Positions 12,854 through 27,109 of a DNA stretch of 64,000 nt are shown one piece after another (within the stretch, counting starts at the first letter, position 1; every line of letters starts with the position of its first letter). Under the pieces are notes generated by a model. It saw only the letters and a program-made list of their open reading frames with translations. It did no database searches and was not told the DNA's origin. Position numbers and translations under genes: made by a program. This DNA is from Candidatus Paraprochloron terpiosi LD05 (lineage in GTDB: Bacteria; Cyanobacteriota; Cyanobacteriia; Cyanobacteriales; Prochloraceae): assembly GCA_018141785.1 (NCBI GenBank), contig CP073341.1, positions 3,379,422 through 3,443,421 on the forward strand. The letters are read 5' to 3'.

Positions 12854-14071
12854 CTAAAGTTTCTGAATAACATTTTCGTAGCGCTGACCAATCTTTTCCC
12901 AAGTATATTCTTTCTCCACCAGAGTGCGACCATTGGCGGAAAGTTTTTCCCGCAGTTTCGGTTCGGCAAACAATCTACCGATAGCATAGACATATTCCTC
13001 TAGTTTATTCGCTCTCATGGCTCGCCAAGGCACATTGGCTCCATCTACCTTCAATCCTAGCAAAGCGAGATCGCTTCCTACCACCGGAACTCCCGCAGCC
13101 ATTGCTTCCAAGGTCTTGTTTTGCAGGCCAAATCCCCGCCGGGTGGGTACAACACACATCGTTGCCCAGTGTAAGTATTCTACCATAGATTTTACCTCCC
13201 CTGTGACCTTAATGTTGGGTAATTTTGCCAACTCTAACACTTCCGGAACTGGACGGGCACCCACTATTTCTAACCTTGCTTCCGGATAGCGATGGAGAAT
13301 TTCCGGAAAGATCTCCAGACTGAAAAACCTGGCGGAGTCGATATTGGCACTATTATCCATTGCTCCCATTAATACTATCCTCTGTCCCCCAGGATTAGAT
13401 ACTCGCTTGGGAAAGAGATTTAAGTCCACCCCGTTGGGAATGACCGTAATATTACTTTCTGGGTTCAGTTCCTTGAGCAACTTGCGGTCATCTTCAGTAA
13501 TGGCCACAATGGAGTTAAATTTGGCGCAATAACTCTCTTCATAGCGACGCAAGAGAGGCAAATTGAGCCTGTTCGCCAATTCGTTCTTTCCGGTATGGGT
13601 TTTCAGTTCATGCTTGCGGATACCATATAAAGAATGGTGGATATTCACCACTGTTTTCAGTTGTTCTCGCCATTCGGGACGGACGTAGATTTCACTCATA
13701 CTGTGTTCAGCTGTAAGAATGGAAAACTCTCCGTCTGCGATGGCTTTGTCCACCCATTCTTGCATCGCCGGGTTATAATTAGATAGTACCTGGGGAGGTT
13801 TTCCCTGTCCAAGAAATGTTGTCAGATGTTTTGCCTGATTTAGAAGTCCTTCATGTTCAGTAATCGATTGAACCTGGGGAAAAACGGCCAACTCTTGCAC
13901 CAACTCTCTCAGTGCCGCCACCTTTTCAGACCCAACCCCTGACAGACAGTTAGTCACCAAGGTAACTTCATGGCGTGCTCCGAGATATTTCAGTAAGTGA
14001 AATGTCCTCAACTCAATCCTATCCTTAGTTGGGGGATAGGGAAAGATGGACGAGAGCATTAAAATCTTCAT
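12854..14071 (-). CDS. Glycosyltransferase family 4 protein
   Basis: A 405-residue GT-B glycosyltransferase. The N-terminal domain starts MKILMLSSIFPYPPTKDRIE, typical of GT4. The C-terminal nucleotide-sugar domain carries IVLMGAMDNSANIDS, RLEIVGARPVPEV and the EX7E region near KTLEAMAAGVPVVGSD. Similar proteins make exopolysaccharide or modify lipids; no polysaccharide operon is in view. It is convergent with the S9 peptidase. A decayed GT2 glycosyltransferase lies upstream, so this may be the survivor of a larger sugar locus. Confidence 0.85.
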   Translation of the reverse strand: MKILMLSSIFPYPPTKDRIELRTFHLLKYLGARHEVTLVTNCLSGVGSEKVAALRELVQELAVFPQVQSITEHEGLLNQAKHLTTFLGQGKPPQVLSNYNPAMQEWVDKAIADGEFSILTAEHSMSEIYVRPEWREQLKTVVNIHHSLYGIRKHELKTHTGKNELANRLNLPLLRRYEESYCAKFNSIVAITEDDRKLLKELNPESNITVIPNGVDLNLFPKRVSNPGGQRIVLMGAMDNSANIDSARFFSLEIFPEILHRYPEARLEIVGARPVPEVLELAKLPNIKVTGEVKSMVEYLHWATMCVVPTRRGFGLQNKTLEAMAAGVPVVGSDLALLGLKVDGANVPWRAMRANKLEEYVYAIGRLFAEPKLREKLSANGRTLVEKEYTWEKIGQRYENVIQKL

Positions 14072-14383: not shown

Positions 14384-15052
14384 TAAAATAATAGCTTACA
14401 TAGGTTTTGCGGCAGCGACGGGGGAATAATTTCTCAAGTTCGATGACGACGATCGCCTGACCCCAGAATTTATCGCCCGCACTACTCCTATATTAGCAGC
14501 TAACCCTGAAGTAGATTTTGTCGATACGGATCATTGGATTATTAATTCTGAAGGTATGGGAGATGAAAAAGCAACGGCTTTAAATTCTCTAAAATGGGGA
14601 AAAAATCTTTAGTGGAAGGGGTAGTGGATAATTTACTAGAAGTAGTTTTTGTCAAGCAAACTTTCAAATTTGGGCTACTTTATTTCGCCGTAAAACTTTA
14701 GTAGAAGTAGGATTTATGCGTCTAGATTGGCAAACGTTTAGCTATAGCAGGAAAAACAGGCTATTATTTTCAAAATAAGCTGCGATATCTTGAAAGCTTT
14801 CAGTTTGACACTAACTTAGAAAAAGTGAGATGGCAACGTCTTGCAGACAATCAACAAGTAATGGGTTTGCGACTAATTGAAAATTGCGATCCCTTGCAAG
14901 GAAAAGAATTAGTGTAACTATCTATGGTGGTTTTGGGTAATTCTCCTCAAGCAACCCTGGGATTAATTTTATCCTATTTGCCCCTCAGTTGGCGACAATT
15001 AGCTTGGAAAGCTGCGGCGTGTCGTTTTCAAAACTATTCCCAGAAAGTTTGA
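14384..15052 (+). pseudogene. Decayed family 2 glycosyltransferase
   Basis: Pieces of a GT2 protein are readable in several frames. FAAATGE is followed by a TAA where a Tyr codon is expected, then FLKFDDDDRLTPEFI, ANPEVDFVDTDHWIINSEG, LVEGVVDNLLEVVFVKQ, LFRRKTLVEVGF, AGKTGYYFQNKL and a C-terminal part ending QNYSQKV at 15052. DDDD is the metal-binding DXD region of GT2 enzymes. At least one nonsense codon, several frameshifts and missing segments make it non-functional. No start codon is evident. Confidence 0.75.
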
Positions 15053-15173: not shown

Positions 15174-15983
15174 ATGGAAACCGCAGAACTGAAATTTCTT
15201 TTGAGGTTGTTGGGAAACCCCGATTATCGGGCATATCTAGCAGGGAAAGGGTTTAAAGACATCAAAAGCAAGAATAAACTGTGTCGTCAATTGCGCGATC
15301 GCGGTTTTATTGATTTTCACGAGGAAATTGCCACGATCAAGATTTTGCCCTCAGGTACAGCCTTACTGGAAATGGAGCAGTCTGAATCACCTCTGGAACC
15401 CAAGGAATTGAAGGTGTTGGAGAAAATTGGCAAGGCTCCGGGCACCATTACCCCCAGTAAATTGGAAGTTAAATCTATCAAAGCAGATGAGCGAGGGGAG
15501 ATTTTGCAAAGCTTTGCCCAACGGGGATTGATTGAAGTTACCATGAAAACTAAGCGTCTGAAAGCCGAAGCCTGGGTTACGGAGGCGGGGCTGGCTTATC
15601 TGCGGGATGAATTTGTCCCGCAACCAGGGAGCAACCCCAGTATTAGCTTGAATTTACTGGGCAATTATCTCAGGTTTCTGCGCCAATCTCCTCCCAATCA
15701 AGTCTCTGAGGCAAAACCCACTGACGAGGAAATTTTACAGCTCATTGGCGAGTTAGACAGGGAACTGGGCACGAAAAATTACTTGCCTATTTTTCACCTG
15801 CGGCAAAAATTACAACCTCCTTTCTCCCGAGAGGAATTGGATCAGGCTCTCTATCGCTTGCAAGGAGAAGATAAAATTGGGCTGAGTTCTTTGGTAGATG
15901 CAGTTCAATATACCCAGGAACAAATCGAGGCGGGTATTCCTCAAGACACTGGGGGTCCTCTCTTCTTCCTGATTGTCCTATAG
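15174..15983 (+). CDS. Winged-helix-like protein next to the ATPase/FtsK-nuclease pair
   Basis: A 269-residue protein. Residues 1-70 (ELKFLLRLLGNPDYRAYLAG … LRDRGFIDFHEEI … ILPSGTALLEM) and 75-150 (LKVLEKIGKAPG … LAQRGLI-type: SFAQRGLIEVT … WVTEAGLAYLRDEF) look like two tandem winged-helix domains. A C-terminal helical/wHTH-like part (residues 185-240: IFHLRQKLQPPFSREEL … ALYRLQGEDKI) follows. The end, GGPLFFLIVL, is hydrophobic. I recall similar proteins as conserved in cyanobacteria next to ATPase genes, but cannot verify this. A likely role is DNA binding or regulation for the two downstream genes, from which it is separated by 435 bp. The ATG at 15174 has GGAAAGGAAAG upstream as ribosome site. 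Confidence 0.6.
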   Translation: METAELKFLLRLLGNPDYRAYLAGKGFKDIKSKNKLCRQLRDRGFIDFHEEIATIKILPSGTALLEMEQSESPLEPKELKVLEKIGKAPGTITPSKLEVKSIKADERGEILQSFAQRGLIEVTMKTKRLKAEAWVTEAGLAYLRDEFVPQPGSNPSISLNLLGNYLRFLRQSPPNQVSEAKPTDEEILQLIGELDRELGTKNYLPIFHLRQKLQPPFSREELDQALYRLQGEDKIGLSSLVDAVQYTQEQIEAGIPQDTGGPLFFLIVL

Positions 15984-18431: not shown

Positions 18432-20912
18432 ATGTCTTATCTCACAAAAGCCAAAGAAATCCGCACTATAATAAACCAACTCATCTCCTATCCTGTGCTC
18501 TGGTTGGATACGGAAGTTGCTGACTCGAAGACTCCCAACCCCAGACTATCCCTGATTCAGGTATTAGCAGCTCCTGATAAAGTATATGTTTTCGATGTCT
18601 TAAATCAGTCAGATTTGGTGCAACATTTTATTAACCAAATCATGGTGAATGGTAACATAGAGAAAATATTTCACAACGCTCCCTTCGACTTGAGATATTT
18701 GGGTAAAGAGAGAGCGGAAAACGTCACCTGCACCCTGAAGCTAGCGAGAAAAATATCCCTGGATATTTTAGATGTACCCAATCGAAAATTGAAAACTTTA
18801 GCCGCCAAACTGGGTTTTGAGAATGTGGATACAGAAAGTCAATCCAGCGACTGGGGAAGGCGCCCCTTGAGTAAAAAGCAACTCCAATACTCTAAAATGG
18901 ATGTAGTTTATCTTGCCGCAGTCCATCGTCATCTCTTAGAATTAACAATGCAACCAACAACAAAGTCAAATAATACCTCTTTTAACGGTACCGACGTCAG
19001 GATTGCCTTTGAATGCCCTCGTCTCTTTTATTTAGGACATCTTTTTGGGGGGAAAACCCTTTTTATTCCAGAAAATCATCCCCGTGGTATAGGGAATAAT
19101 TTTCACAAAATAGGGTCAGATTTCCTGAAAACAGCTGGCCGAGAACCTCGGTTTCTTCCCTTATTTGCACCCCAAACCCTAGAACCAGAAGCATTAGGGC
19201 AGCAAATGGAATCCTTGCTCTATGAATTGGTATTCTATCCCTACTTACAAAAAGCAGATCCAGCCACAGCACCTGCACTCTATCAAGTTTGGCAAGGATT
19301 AACTGGATTAATTGCCCGTTGGGCTCAATTATTAGCCCAAAATCGACCCTATTCTACTCCTGAGAAATTAATTAGCAAAACCTTTATCGCTCAGGAAGAC
19401 AAGCTCCAGCATCAATTTACCCTCCCCAATGGTAATCTACAACCAGTAGGGGGTACTTTAGATAGCCTCATGCAGGATTTAGAGCGTAAACGCCTGAGGG
19501 TGATAGAATACAAAACCTATACCCCCGTGGATCCCTCAGCACAATTAGCTCAGGTAGCTCTTTATAGTTATATGGTGAGGGAAAAATTAAAGACTCCGGT
19601 GGATTCGGCGGTTTATTGTGTTCTCCCAGAGTTTAAGGAGTATAATTATACTTGGGAAGAATTGGAAGATACGGTACATGAACTGATTCCTCATAAGTTA
19701 CAGCAGATGAACCAATGGGTGAGATGGAAACCAGGAGACCCAAAGCCACCACCCAGCACCACCCAACCTCACCTCTGCCATATTTGTCCCCAACAGGAAA
19801 AGTGTCAAAGCTTTTTCTCCTCTGTCAATCCTATTGTAGAGAAGGAAAACACCCATTCTACTCCTGATGCAGAAAGGATGGCAGAGCAATTAATTTCCGC
19901 CTTAAAATCCTTTAAAATAGGGGTAGATTACCTAGGAGCAGCAGTTGGTTCCGCATTTATTCGAGTCAAGCTCAAACCTCACCCAGGGGTTAAAGTAGTT
20001 TCCTTGGTACACAGAGCAGAGGATCTCCAGGTACAATTAGGTATAGTTAGCCCACCCCTCATTGCCCCCCAACCGGGATATGTGAGCGTGGATTTACCCC
20101 GCCCAGATCGCCAAATTGCTAACTTTGACGATTATATTAAAGGGGAGAACACAGCCCAGGAGAAGACAGTCAAAATTGCCATTGGTATCGATTTAGATGG
20201 TAAATTGGTAGAAGCAGACTTAGCAGATGCTAATACTTGTCACTTTTTAATTGGGGGAACCACTGGTAGCGGTAAAAGCGAATTCCTGCGGAGCCTCCTG
20301 CTCAGTTTAATCCGTCGTCATTCTCCCCAACAACTGGGAATTGTCCTCGTAGATCCAAAACGAGTCACTTTCCCGGAATTTGAGGGGATGGGTTGGTTGC
20401 GAACTCCTATCATAAAAGATAGCGATCGCGCTATGGAGCTAATGGAAAAATTAGTCAGAGAAGTTGCTAAACGTTACCTCCTATTTGAAGGAGCAAAATG
20501 TTCCCATCTAGAGGCTTATAACCACAAACGAACTCAACAACAACAGCCCCCTCTCCGTCGGATTGTTTGTATCTTTGATGAATATGCAGACTTTATGGCG
20601 GAGAAAGAAGTACGAGCAGTTTTAGAACAAAGTATCAAAAGATTGGGAGCCATGGCGAGAGCAGCAGGAATTCATTTAATTATTGCCACTCAACGTCCCG
20701 ATGCTAAAGTAGTCACTCCCCTGATTCGTTCTAACTTACCGGGAAGAATTGCTCTGCGCACTGCAAGTGTTGCTGATTCCAAAATTATTTTAGGGGGTAA
20801 TCAAGAAGAAGCAGCTTATCTCTTAGGAAAAGGGGATTTATTCTATCAAGTGGGTTCTCAACTGCAACGTCTTCAGAGTTTATTTGCGTCGTCAATCCAA
20901 ATTACCTCTTAA
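18432..20912 (+). CDS. DEDD exonuclease - Cas4/RecB-like nuclease - FtsK translocase fusion
   Basis: An 826-residue three-domain protein. (1) Residues 20-172: RNase D-like 3'-5' exonuclease of the DEDDy type: D26 and E28 in LWLDTEVAD, D86 in HNAPFDLRYL, Y153/D157 in YSKMD. (2) Residues 185-462: Cas4/RecB-type PD-(D/E)XK nuclease with H225 (GNNFHK), D344 (GGTLDS), E359 and K361 (IEYKTY) and Q374…Y378. C195 plus C449, C452 and C458 (CHICPQQEKC) are the four cysteines expected for an Fe-S cluster. (3) Residues 480-826: FtsK/SpoIIIE motor with Walker A GGTTGSGKS (608-616), VDPKRVTFPEFEG, Walker B IFDEYADF (D716/E717) and IATQRPDAKVVTPLIRSNLP. There is no FtsK membrane or gamma domain. All catalytic residues look intact. 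The predicted role is motor-driven double-stranded DNA processing in defence or repair. Confidence 0.85.
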   Translation: MSYLTKAKEIRTIINQLISYPVLWLDTEVADSKTPNPRLSLIQVLAAPDKVYVFDVLNQSDLVQHFINQIMVNGNIEKIFHNAPFDLRYLGKERAENVTCTLKLARKISLDILDVPNRKLKTLAAKLGFENVDTESQSSDWGRRPLSKKQLQYSKMDVVYLAAVHRHLLELTMQPTTKSNNTSFNGTDVRIAFECPRLFYLGHLFGGKTLFIPENHPRGIGNNFHKIGSDFLKTAGREPRFLPLFAPQTLEPEALGQQMESLLYELVFYPYLQKADPATAPALYQVWQGLTGLIARWAQLLAQNRPYSTPEKLISKTFIAQEDKLQHQFTLPNGNLQPVGGTLDSLMQDLERKRLRVIEYKTYTPVDPSAQLAQVALYSYMVREKLKTPVDSAVYCVLPEFKEYNYTWEELEDTVHELIPHKLQQMNQWVRWKPGDPKPPPSTTQPHLCHICPQQEKCQSFFSSVNPIVEKENTHSTPDAERMAEQLISALKSFKIGVDYLGAAVGSAFIRVKLKPHPGVKVVSLVHRAEDLQVQLGIVSPPLIAPQPGYVSVDLPRPDRQIANFDDYIKGENTAQEKTVKIAIGIDLDGKLVEADLADANTCHFLIGGTTGSGKSEFLRSLLLSLIRRHSPQQLGIVLVDPKRVTFPEFEGMGWLRTPIIKDSDRAMELMEKLVREVAKRYLLFEGAKCSHLEAYNHKRTQQQQPPLRRIVCIFDEYADFMAEKEVRAVLEQSIKRLGAMARAAGIHLIIATQRPDAKVVTPLIRSNLPGRIALRTASVADSKIILGGNQEEAAYLLGKGDLFYQVGSQLQRLQSLFASSIQITS

Positions 20913-20917
20913 TCTCG

Positions 20918-22021
20918 TCACTTCTCCTCATACTTGAGAACAGTATTTCTGAGCCTGTCGGCGAACTGTTGGATTTCCTTGACTTCTGTGATGGGAATCT
21001 TTTCTTCTTTCTTTTCATCATTATCGAATAAAGCGATATATTTCTGGGAGGTGTTAAAATAAAGGCGACATATAGGTTGCCGCTGATTATCATCTAGCAG
21101 AATGCCAAAATAGCGTACTGTATCCCGGTAAAATATCCTCTTCTCCTCAACCGTACTCTTCAGAATATCTCTTACAGCAATAAATCCGTAAACCTCGTCG
21201 GCGGTGGTTTCAATGTTGTCACTATCCTTCTGTTTTAGAGAGCTATGGGCGGATATATCAGGAGAGCTAACATCTGTGGTAGATTCTGATTCGTCAGACT
21301 GAGTTGTATCTTTATCGAATACAGATTCCAGACGTTTCTCAATTTCCTCGTGGATAAACTGCTTCAACGCTCTTTGGGTAATTCCCTGAAACTGTCCCAC
21401 AACTTTCTGGGTTATCCTACCTTCATAAATTTGGGATGCGAAAAACTTGACAAAATCATCAGAGGGTTTCACCAATTGATTCGCCAATATCACCTTTATC
21501 TCTCTGGTATATTTCAGTTCCACAGCACCGGAAATGAGTTGTTCGGGATTGAAATAATATTTACCGAGTTTCTTCAGTTCAATAATTAGGGAATCGTGAA
21601 TGTTGAGCAAATCGAATTCCAAAAATGGCTTGGAATCCATTTGATTCCGTTTTTCCTGATCTGTGTATAATTGGTATTTCACTCCATTGGTTAAAATGGC
21701 GATGGGAGATTCTGTGACGGAAAAATAGCGATAAAGCTGAGAGGTGTGTTTACTATCGAGATCCACACCGCACCATTTGCATTCCATCAGGATGATGGGT
21801 TTCCCATCCCGCATAATGGCGTAATCGACTTTCTCCCCCCTCTTGGTTCCCACATCGGCGGTAAATTCAGGAATGACTTCCCCCGGATCATAGACGTCAT
21901 AATCCAAAGCCGCGATAAAAGGAATCACCAGTGCCTGTTTTGTCGCTTCTTCTGTCTGAATCGAACCCTGGGATTTCCGCACCCTGGTTCCGAGAGCCCG
22001 CATTTTTTCCGCAAAATCCAT
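20918..22021 (-). CDS. HsdR N-terminal-type nuclease (type I restriction-like), stand-alone
   Basis: A 367-residue protein. The N-terminal 170 residues match the HsdR_N nuclease domain: E24/E25, D66 in KVDYAIM, E80 and K82 in LMECKW, then SQLYRYFSVTESPIAILTNG and QLYTD. No helicase domain follows, and no hsdM or hsdS is nearby, so it is not a complete restriction enzyme. The C-terminal part has a Ser/Asp-rich linker (residues 245-285) and a small domain (FIAVRDILKSTV … CRLYFNTSQKYIALFD) seen in other stand-alone members. It is convergent with the fusion gene, with only 5 bp between the stops. The substrate is unknown; nucleic-acid cleavage is inferred. Confidence 0.8.
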   Translation of the reverse strand: MDFAEKMRALGTRVRKSQGSIQTEEATKQALVIPFIAALDYDVYDPGEVIPEFTADVGTKRGEKVDYAIMRDGKPIILMECKWCGVDLDSKHTSQLYRYFSVTESPIAILTNGVKYQLYTDQEKRNQMDSKPFLEFDLLNIHDSLIIELKKLGKYYFNPEQLISGAVELKYTREIKVILANQLVKPSDDFVKFFASQIYEGRITQKVVGQFQGITQRALKQFIHEEIEKRLESVFDKDTTQSDESESTTDVSSPDISAHSSLKQKDSDNIETTADEVYGFIAVRDILKSTVEEKRIFYRDTVRYFGILLDDNQRQPICRLYFNTSQKYIALFDNDEKKEEKIPITEVKEIQQFADRLRNTVLKYEEK

Positions 22022-26413: not shown

Positions 26414-27109
26414 TTATATAGGATTTTGTAGAAGCTGGACAAAATCAGCGTGTTGAGGGGAATTGAGTCCCTCTTGCAACACTGCTACCACTCGTGTCAT
26501 GTTTTGAGCTAATAATGCTTTTGTTGCTAACCACAAACCAGGGAAAACTTGGGAGCGCACTATTTGGGAATCATCGGGTTGTAAAAGAACATATTTTCCT
26601 TCCCTCAGTTCAAACCAATCTACTTTATTCTCAAAAATCTGCCAGAGGATATATTCTTGTATACCATTGCGTTCATAGGCTAGTTTCTTGTCGTGGAAGT
26701 CGTAACTAGCACTTGATGCTGCTATTTCCACTACTAATTCCGGCGCTCCTTCTATATAGTCATCTGCTGTAATGCGGGATCTTCCCCCCACACTTTCATC
26801 CATTAATAATACCCCATCTGGCTGAGGTTCGTTCTCTAAATCTAAACGCAATGTAGGCTCTATACCTAATTTTACTCCAAAAGTAGCCATACTGTAAGTC
26901 CAGAGCCAGCCGATCATGTTAGCATGGGGTTGTGCGTGGCTCTGAAAACGTAATGGGGATGCCATATAGACGACTCCTTCTATTAGTTCCGCCTTTTGAT
27001 CTTGAGCCATAGCGGCGTAACGTCGCTCGAATTCTGGACGAGAGAGCCTATCTCCGTTTTCTAGCCAAGGGAGCTGGCGTTGCTCCTCTTGCAATACTTG
27101 TCCTACCAT
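26414..27109 (-). CDS. Uma2-family (DUF820) PD-(D/E)XK protein
   Basis: A 231-residue Uma2 protein, a cyanobacterial multi-copy family with a PD-(D/E)XK nuclease fold. Motifs are PDGVLLMDESVGGRSR, APELVVEIAASSASYD, KKLAYERNGIQEYILW and RSQVFPGLWL near the end. The catalytic D, E and K positions are intact. The in vivo role is unknown. A second, shorter Uma2 gene is at 41715-42266. It lies 27 bp upstream of lysC on the same strand. Confidence 0.88.
   Translation of the reverse strand: MVGQVLQEEQRQLPWLENGDRLSRPEFERRYAAMAQDQKAELIEGVVYMASPLRFQSHAQPHANMIGWLWTYSMATFGVKLGIEPTLRLDLENEPQPDGVLLMDESVGGRSRITADDYIEGAPELVVEIAASSASYDFHDKKLAYERNGIQEYILWQIFENKVDWFELREGKYVLLQPDDSQIVRSQVFPGLWLATKALLAQNMTRVVAVLQEGLNSPQHADFVQLLQNPI

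Follow-up and report, generated by a model that had tools for sequence, protein, structure and literature searches.

The locus described here raises the question of what a cell does with a single protein in which two nucleases are joined to a DNA motor. This protein, NUC, is encoded within a stretch of 64,000 nucleotides from Candidatus Paraprochloron terpiosi LD05 (contig CP073341.1), hereafter the window, and was read in a preliminary description as a DEDD exonuclease, a Cas4/RecB-like Fe-S nuclease and an FtsK motor on one chain. We found support for each of the three domains, both in Pfam and in structural comparisons of a predicted model. Residues 4-169 match DNA_pol_A_exo1 (PF01612, E 3e-24), residues 194-459 PDDEXK_1 (PF12705, E 1e-12), residues 469-556 FtsK_alpha (PF17854, E 5e-9) and residues 575-756 FtsK_SpoIIIE (PF01580, E 3.5e-37), with all four matches exceeding Pfam's curated cut-offs (Table 1). 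The motor is thereby confirmed, together with an FtsK alpha domain that the preliminary description had passed over, and it also matches the profile phrog_1358 at 8.5e-71. A Pfam search found no FtsK gamma (KOPS-reading) domain in NUC, and no membrane domain was found in the protein; its score for the NCBIfam FtsK equivalog, 150 bits where the cut-off is 1566, sets it apart from the cellular FtsK.

An AlphaFold2 model of NUC, built from 40 cyanobacterial homologues, has a mean pLDDT of 87 and a pTM of 0.46, so that the single domains can be relied upon while their mutual placement is uncertain. In this model, residues 464-826 superimpose on Pseudomonas aeruginosa FtsK (2iut) with Z 40.9 and rmsd 2.8 over 349 aligned residues, and residues 1-176 on RNase D, the Pol I exonuclease and NrnC with Z 18-20. 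Foldseek searches with the model recovered Dna2 (5ean, 1e-8) and AddAB (4ceh_B, 1.8e-7), both of which contain Fe-S RecB-family nucleases. The top VIA-align rows, which were taken up by the other two domains, included neither Dna2 nor AddB, and a profile search of PDB sequences with the middle nuclease alone returned no relative; support for this domain comes from Pfam, weak Cas4 profile matches and Foldseek. Since its match to the Cas4 profile TIGR00372 reaches 23-24 bits against a cut-off of 65 bits, a Cas4 identity was rejected. Judged by its sequence, the middle domain is a RecB-family nuclease of the Fe-S type, in which an Fe-S cluster is predicted.

The catalytic residues assigned in the preliminary description proved to be invariant in alignments of NUC homologues. 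The nuclease residues H225, D344, E/D359, K361 and Q374, the four cysteines C195, C449, C452 and C458, which follow the AddB/Dna2-type Fe-S pattern, and the Walker residues K615 and D716/E717 are each kept in 40/40 homologues. The exonuclease domain is absent from three of the 40 as natural variants, and in the 37 that carry it D26, E28, D86, Y153 and D157 are kept without exception. Because uninterrupted single ORFs of ~850-900 aa recur in dozens of independent cyanobacterial genomes, we could discard a sequencing or assembly fusion as the origin of NUC; in these homologues the domains are fused and linked, rather than split and unlinked.

Table 1 Features of the locus in window coordinates
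Feature	Position	Strand	Basis and remarks
GT4 glycosyltransferase, flanking landmark of the ancestral site, outside the system	12854..14071	-	cluster 4 in 28 loci
wH gene, ~269 aa, several wHTH-like stretches (~20-66, 75-147, 190-250)	15174..15983	+	ORF, weak profile matches
AAA gene, Orc/Cdc6-type AAA+ ATPase, 666 aa	16419..18419	+	AF2 model, structure matches
NUC gene, DEDDy exonuclease - Fe-S-type PD-(D/E)XK nuclease - FtsK alpha/beta motor	18432..20912	+	826 aa, ATG start, intact ORF
DEDDy 3'-5' exonuclease domain, NUC residues 1-172 (D26, E28, D86, Y153, D157)	18432..18947	+	Pfam PF01612, structure
RecB/AddB/Cas4-like PD-(D/E)XK nuclease, NUC residues 185-462, C-Xn-C-X2-C-X5-C set	18984..19817	+	Pfam PF12705, Foldseek
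FtsK alpha (469-556) and beta motor (575-826) of NUC	19836..20909	+	Pfam PF17854, PF01580

That such a protein pumps DNA past its nucleases, as had been proposed, is the natural reading, but it would not do so as a stand-alone machine, since NUC is the third and last gene of a conserved operon, overlooked in the preliminary description, in which it is preceded by a wH gene and a gene for an Orc/Cdc6 AAA+ protein (AAA). Across 81 loci, comprising the best 80 related loci of a genome scan, all of them cyanobacterial, and the window, AAA (~692 aa) adjoins NUC on the same strand in 76, and a wH orthologue (~283 aa) lies upstream of AAA on the same strand in 67; loci without wH or AAA were largely ended early by contig ends. 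The order wH>AAA>NUC is strict, with median spacers of 55 and 27 bp, and the gap of 435 bp between wH and AAA in the window is the longest observed among the loci compared. Scattered, weak wHTH, MksE and HTH_45 profile matches run along the length of the wH protein across its members, 37 of which were aligned, and we predict that it is the DNA-binding or target-recognition subunit.

The AAA model is well defined (pLDDT 86.5, pTM 0.84), and its top structural matches are all Orc/Cdc6 proteins (1w5t_A, Z 14.7; 1fnn_A, Z 14.5), with an rmsd of ~4 over ~240 residues and with the transposon ATPase TnsC close behind. An AAA+ core (~41-330) is followed by an REase-like alpha/beta domain (~401-540) and a C-terminal wHTH-like domain (~593-662). 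Residues 404-533 show an REase-like order of elements and no recognisable D..(D/E)xK set, a combination of topology and missing motif that points to an inactive REase-like domain. Walker A is intact, and in 40/40 homologues the glutamate that normally follows the Walker-B aspartate is replaced (D239-[Q/N]240), by Q in 27 and by N in 13, which suggests a protein that binds ATP and hydrolyses it weakly. Both partners vary more than the motor does. Additional tandem Orc/Cdc6-like copies, with or without wH, stand beside the operon in loci L068 (249-2384), L077 and L095 (632-4874).

These parts have a counterpart in the literature. Rakesh, Aravind and Krishnan (NAR 2024, PMC10853773) predicted, in the main text of their paper, Orc/CDC6-coupled HerA/FtsK capture systems that would counter invaders, in which an Orc/CDC6 AAA+ protein with an inactive REase inserted before its C-terminal wHTH is combined with an active REase of one of two families and a HerA/FtsK motor, one set of which has FtsK-alpha; a subset has an extra gene with 2-4 wHTH domains, and in some a 3'->5' exonuclease is fused to the FtsK component. 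The suggestion in the preliminary description that the three-part order with FtsK was not a known one must therefore be given up, at least as far as this prediction goes. As in those systems, the window has an Orc/CDC6-family AAA+ gene (top matches Z 14-15) and a NUC with an active-type REase (H-D-E/D-K-Q in 40/40), FtsK-alpha on its motor and a DEDDy exonuclease fused to that motor. The window operon thus appears to belong to this predicted kind, in which we place it because its parts list matches; we found no experimental test of such systems in the literature. In this context, the paper's main text mentions no cyanobacteria, Cas4, RecB or Fe-S, and no Walker-B D-(Q/N) change or fixed chromosomal site. 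Relative to that text, apparently new details are the RecB-type nuclease with its Fe-S cysteine set, the D-(Q/N) at Walker B of the Orc-like protein in 40/40 and the fixed site with repeated loss, together with a motor nearest to FtsKs of cyanobacterial mobile elements.

Comparisons with better-known machines place NUC close to several and within none. Its best PADLOC matches are the defence motors SspH (1e-64) and mad8 (8e-32), its model matches DndH-C (7es4) with Z 20.2, and the operon resembles DndFGH and SspFGH in that a nuclease-bearing protein ends in an FtsK/HerA motor and is accompanied by an ATPase and by a partner with several wHTH domains. However, DndH is a protein of ~1700-1800 aa that also contains an SNF2-like domain, a TRD and an inactive methylase, whereas NUC has 826 aa and aligns to SspH through its FtsK part only (at SspH 1385-1741), a length and a confined match that exclude a DndH/SspH architecture; the DndH and NUC motors also form separate clades (100/100), and the conserved NUC operon is without phosphorothioation genes. 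HerA-NurA, HerA-SIR2 and HerA-DUF4297 likewise couple a HerA/FtsK ring to a nuclease or effector, and structures of this sort are among the matches of the NUC model (9x1m, 8woc, 8ziq), but these systems use separate chains and a HerA-type motor, where in NUC two nucleases are fused to an FtsK alpha/beta motor. AddAB, RecBCD and Dna2 share with NUC a PD-(D/E)XK nuclease with an Fe-S staple tied to a DNA motor, which in their case is an SF1 helicase rather than an FtsK translocase, and NUC has the DEDDy exonuclease in addition. TM0106-type RecB-RNase H fusions also carry two nuclease folds on one chain, but with another RNase H-like family, another order and another motor.

The distribution of the operon bears on what it is for. 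It is widespread and patchy in Cyanobacteriales: among 245 genomes of the order, 88 have matches to NUC, 108 to AAA and 108 to wH, so that NUC is found in about a third; ~76 of the NUC matches are bona fide, all of them in genomes that also have AAA and wH, and NUC is absent from roughly 30 genomes that do carry wH-AAA. Searches of plasmids with full-length AAA and with the nuclease domain returned, besides weak partial matches, only Pseudanabaena, where a conjugative plasmid of strain PCC 7367 carries a three-gene copy without the exonuclease domain; among virus contigs there were 37 pattern matches, none of them a relative. Many Nostocales, and with them some further filamentous cyanobacteria, have the operon at one chromosomal site, with the flank order GT4<-GT2>-[operon]-ParA>-IleRS<. 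The window has GT4, which shares 53% identity with its counterpart upstream of the operon at locus L021, and between it and the operon a GT2 glycosyltransferase that is intact in Nostocales and here broken into two fragments (14403-15010); because of this GT4 and broken GT2 upstream, we take the window operon to lie at the same ancestral site.

At this site the operon has decayed repeatedly. Within the Nostocaceae, the site is empty of the operon in genome G120, retains only C-terminal NUC remnants in G094 and G077, holds pseudogenes of all three genes in G414 and has lost NUC alone in G118; in the sister genome, Candidatus Paraprochloron terpiosi (L023 / L002), a ~95% identical NUC is in several pieces and AAA in two, whereas the window has them intact. 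An ancient, dispensable and repeatedly lost locus with perfectly kept active sites fits an accessory system. It also makes unlikely a resection role in the manner of RecBCD or AddAB, such as the preliminary description had raised. On this rival reading, the operon would encode a machine of AddAB/RecBCD or HerA-NurA style that repairs the cell's own chromosome, in which the motor would draw in broken ends, both nucleases would cut them back and the Orc-like protein would mark the site. An AddB/Dna2-type Fe-S nuclease, a 3'-5' exonuclease and a dsDNA motor in one protein would suit such a machine, many Nostocales inherit the operon vertically at one chromosomal site, and the window's genome has no match above the RecB cut-off. 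Yet the operon has been pseudogenised repeatedly within a single family, it is restricted to about a third of the order's genomes and to 50/386 genomes of the phylum at E<=1e-20, some of these being other FtsKs, and NUC is always linked to wHTH and Orc-like partners that are more variable than the motor. With its patchy occurrence and repeated loss, the locus fits accessory defence better than a repair machine.

Our preferred reading is that NUC probably serves as the effector in an anti-invader system of three genes, directed against plasmids or phages, of the Orc/CDC6-coupled HerA/FtsK capture kind. In such a system, the wH protein and the Orc-like ATPase would attach to foreign DNA or to some DNA structure; the ATPase, which is missing its usual catalytic glutamate and may for that reason serve not as a motor but as a clamp or switch held by ATP, would load or license a NUC hexamer. 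The hexamer would then pump dsDNA past the Fe-S nuclease, which may cut endonucleolytically or at ends, while the DEDDy domain trims 3' ends and the captured DNA is destroyed. Given the pTM of 0.46, this geometry of ring and nucleases is only a proposal. The conserved operon contains no modification enzyme, and self would therefore have to be told from non-self by recognition or by DNA topology or ends, not by DNA marking.

The invariant catalytic residues, the strict gene order and the joint occurrence of all three genes speak for this anti-invader reading, as do the copy on a conjugative plasmid, the patchiness, the repeated decay at one site, the motor matches to SspH, mad8 and DndH-C, the Orc/Cdc6 match and the parts list of PMC10853773. 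Against it, the Nostocales operon is passed on at a fixed site and does not hop between islands, a pattern less usual for defence genes, and the neighbours form no clear defence island. Among 76 neighbours there were only single matches to defence genes, for example DpdE, ZorD, a type IIG RM and AbiEii, a count without a baseline; a uniform defence-island association was not seen. The operon gives a so far loosely outlined group of predicted capture systems a concrete and testable form, a widespread unit of three genes whose active sites do not vary and which is present in cyanobacteria that can be cultured. It bears on whether the ring of an FtsK can become a nuclease machine, on how Orc-like proteins pick DNA without a modification mark, and on defence versus DNA repair.

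Two further putative nuclease genes lie near the operon in the window. An HSDR_N-type gene downstream of NUC (20918-22021, minus strand) was rejected as part of the operon, as it is matched in only 4 loci, the window and the sister genome included, and a Uma2-type gene (26414-27109, minus strand) is not conserved with the operon.

NUC is the only FtsK_SpoIIIE protein in the genome of the window, and FtsK_alpha occurs in 41/386 genomes of the phylum, nearly always in the NUC family, so most cyanobacteria searched are without any. While these counts would suit a protein that stands in for the cellular FtsK, missing here, when chromosomes segregate or dimers are resolved, we regard this role as extremely unlikely: most cyanobacteria manage without NUC, which is often decayed, has no membrane or gamma domain that we could find, and carries nucleases that have no obvious place in such a role.

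In phylogenetic trees, the motors of the NUC family form one clade (99/99), nearest to which are other cyanobacterial FtsKs, FtsKs of Nostoc plasmids and FtsKs of Cylindrospermopsis phages; the cellular FtsK and DndH are separated from these by a weakly supported split (50/92) with long branches. This placement makes a mobile-element source of the NUC motor possible, whereas the main text of PMC10853773 derives the FtsK-alpha set of capture systems from the cellular FtsK. The NUC exonuclease domain forms a clade (98/97) with standalone cyanobacterial RNase D-like proteins of ~310 aa, and either the fused or the standalone form may have come first. The weak grouping of the motor with plasmid and phage FtsKs, the conjugative plasmid copy and the presence of transposon ATPases such as TnsC among the structural matches of AAA would also suit a module for the maintenance or transfer of a plasmid or mobile element that now resides in the chromosome. 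We nonetheless consider such a module very unlikely, as the conserved operon is without recombinase, relaxase or integration genes, is mostly chromosomal at a fixed site and keeps active nucleases under strong conservation.

Within the anti-invader reading, a bolder version, which we put forward tentatively and think may well be wrong, is a DNA-destroying ring that is independent of modification, in which a hydrolysis-impaired Orc-like clamp would load an FtsK hexamer with six exonuclease and six Fe-S nuclease sites, and a motor derived from cyanobacterial phages or plasmids would intercept the DNA of such elements during segregation or transfer.

The closest phage relatives of the NUC motor that we found are FtsKs of ~700 aa in the Cylindrospermopsis phages CrV-01T and Cr-LKS4 (L151, 5530-7548; L161, 1970-4048), which are 38-39% identical to it. 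Large Nostocales plasmids (L136, 6236-8413; L152; L153) encode an FtsK of ~725 aa whose gene shares a conserved block with a gene for either an M23 peptidase or a lysozyme, and in L136 a terminase-like gene is nearby; this block looks like a DNA-transfer or packaging module of a mobile element. Further cyanobacterial FtsK families (L137-L142) have 694-743 aa, motors that are 42-53% identical and N- and C-terminal parts without assignment, one of these proteins having a weak GIY-YIG match.
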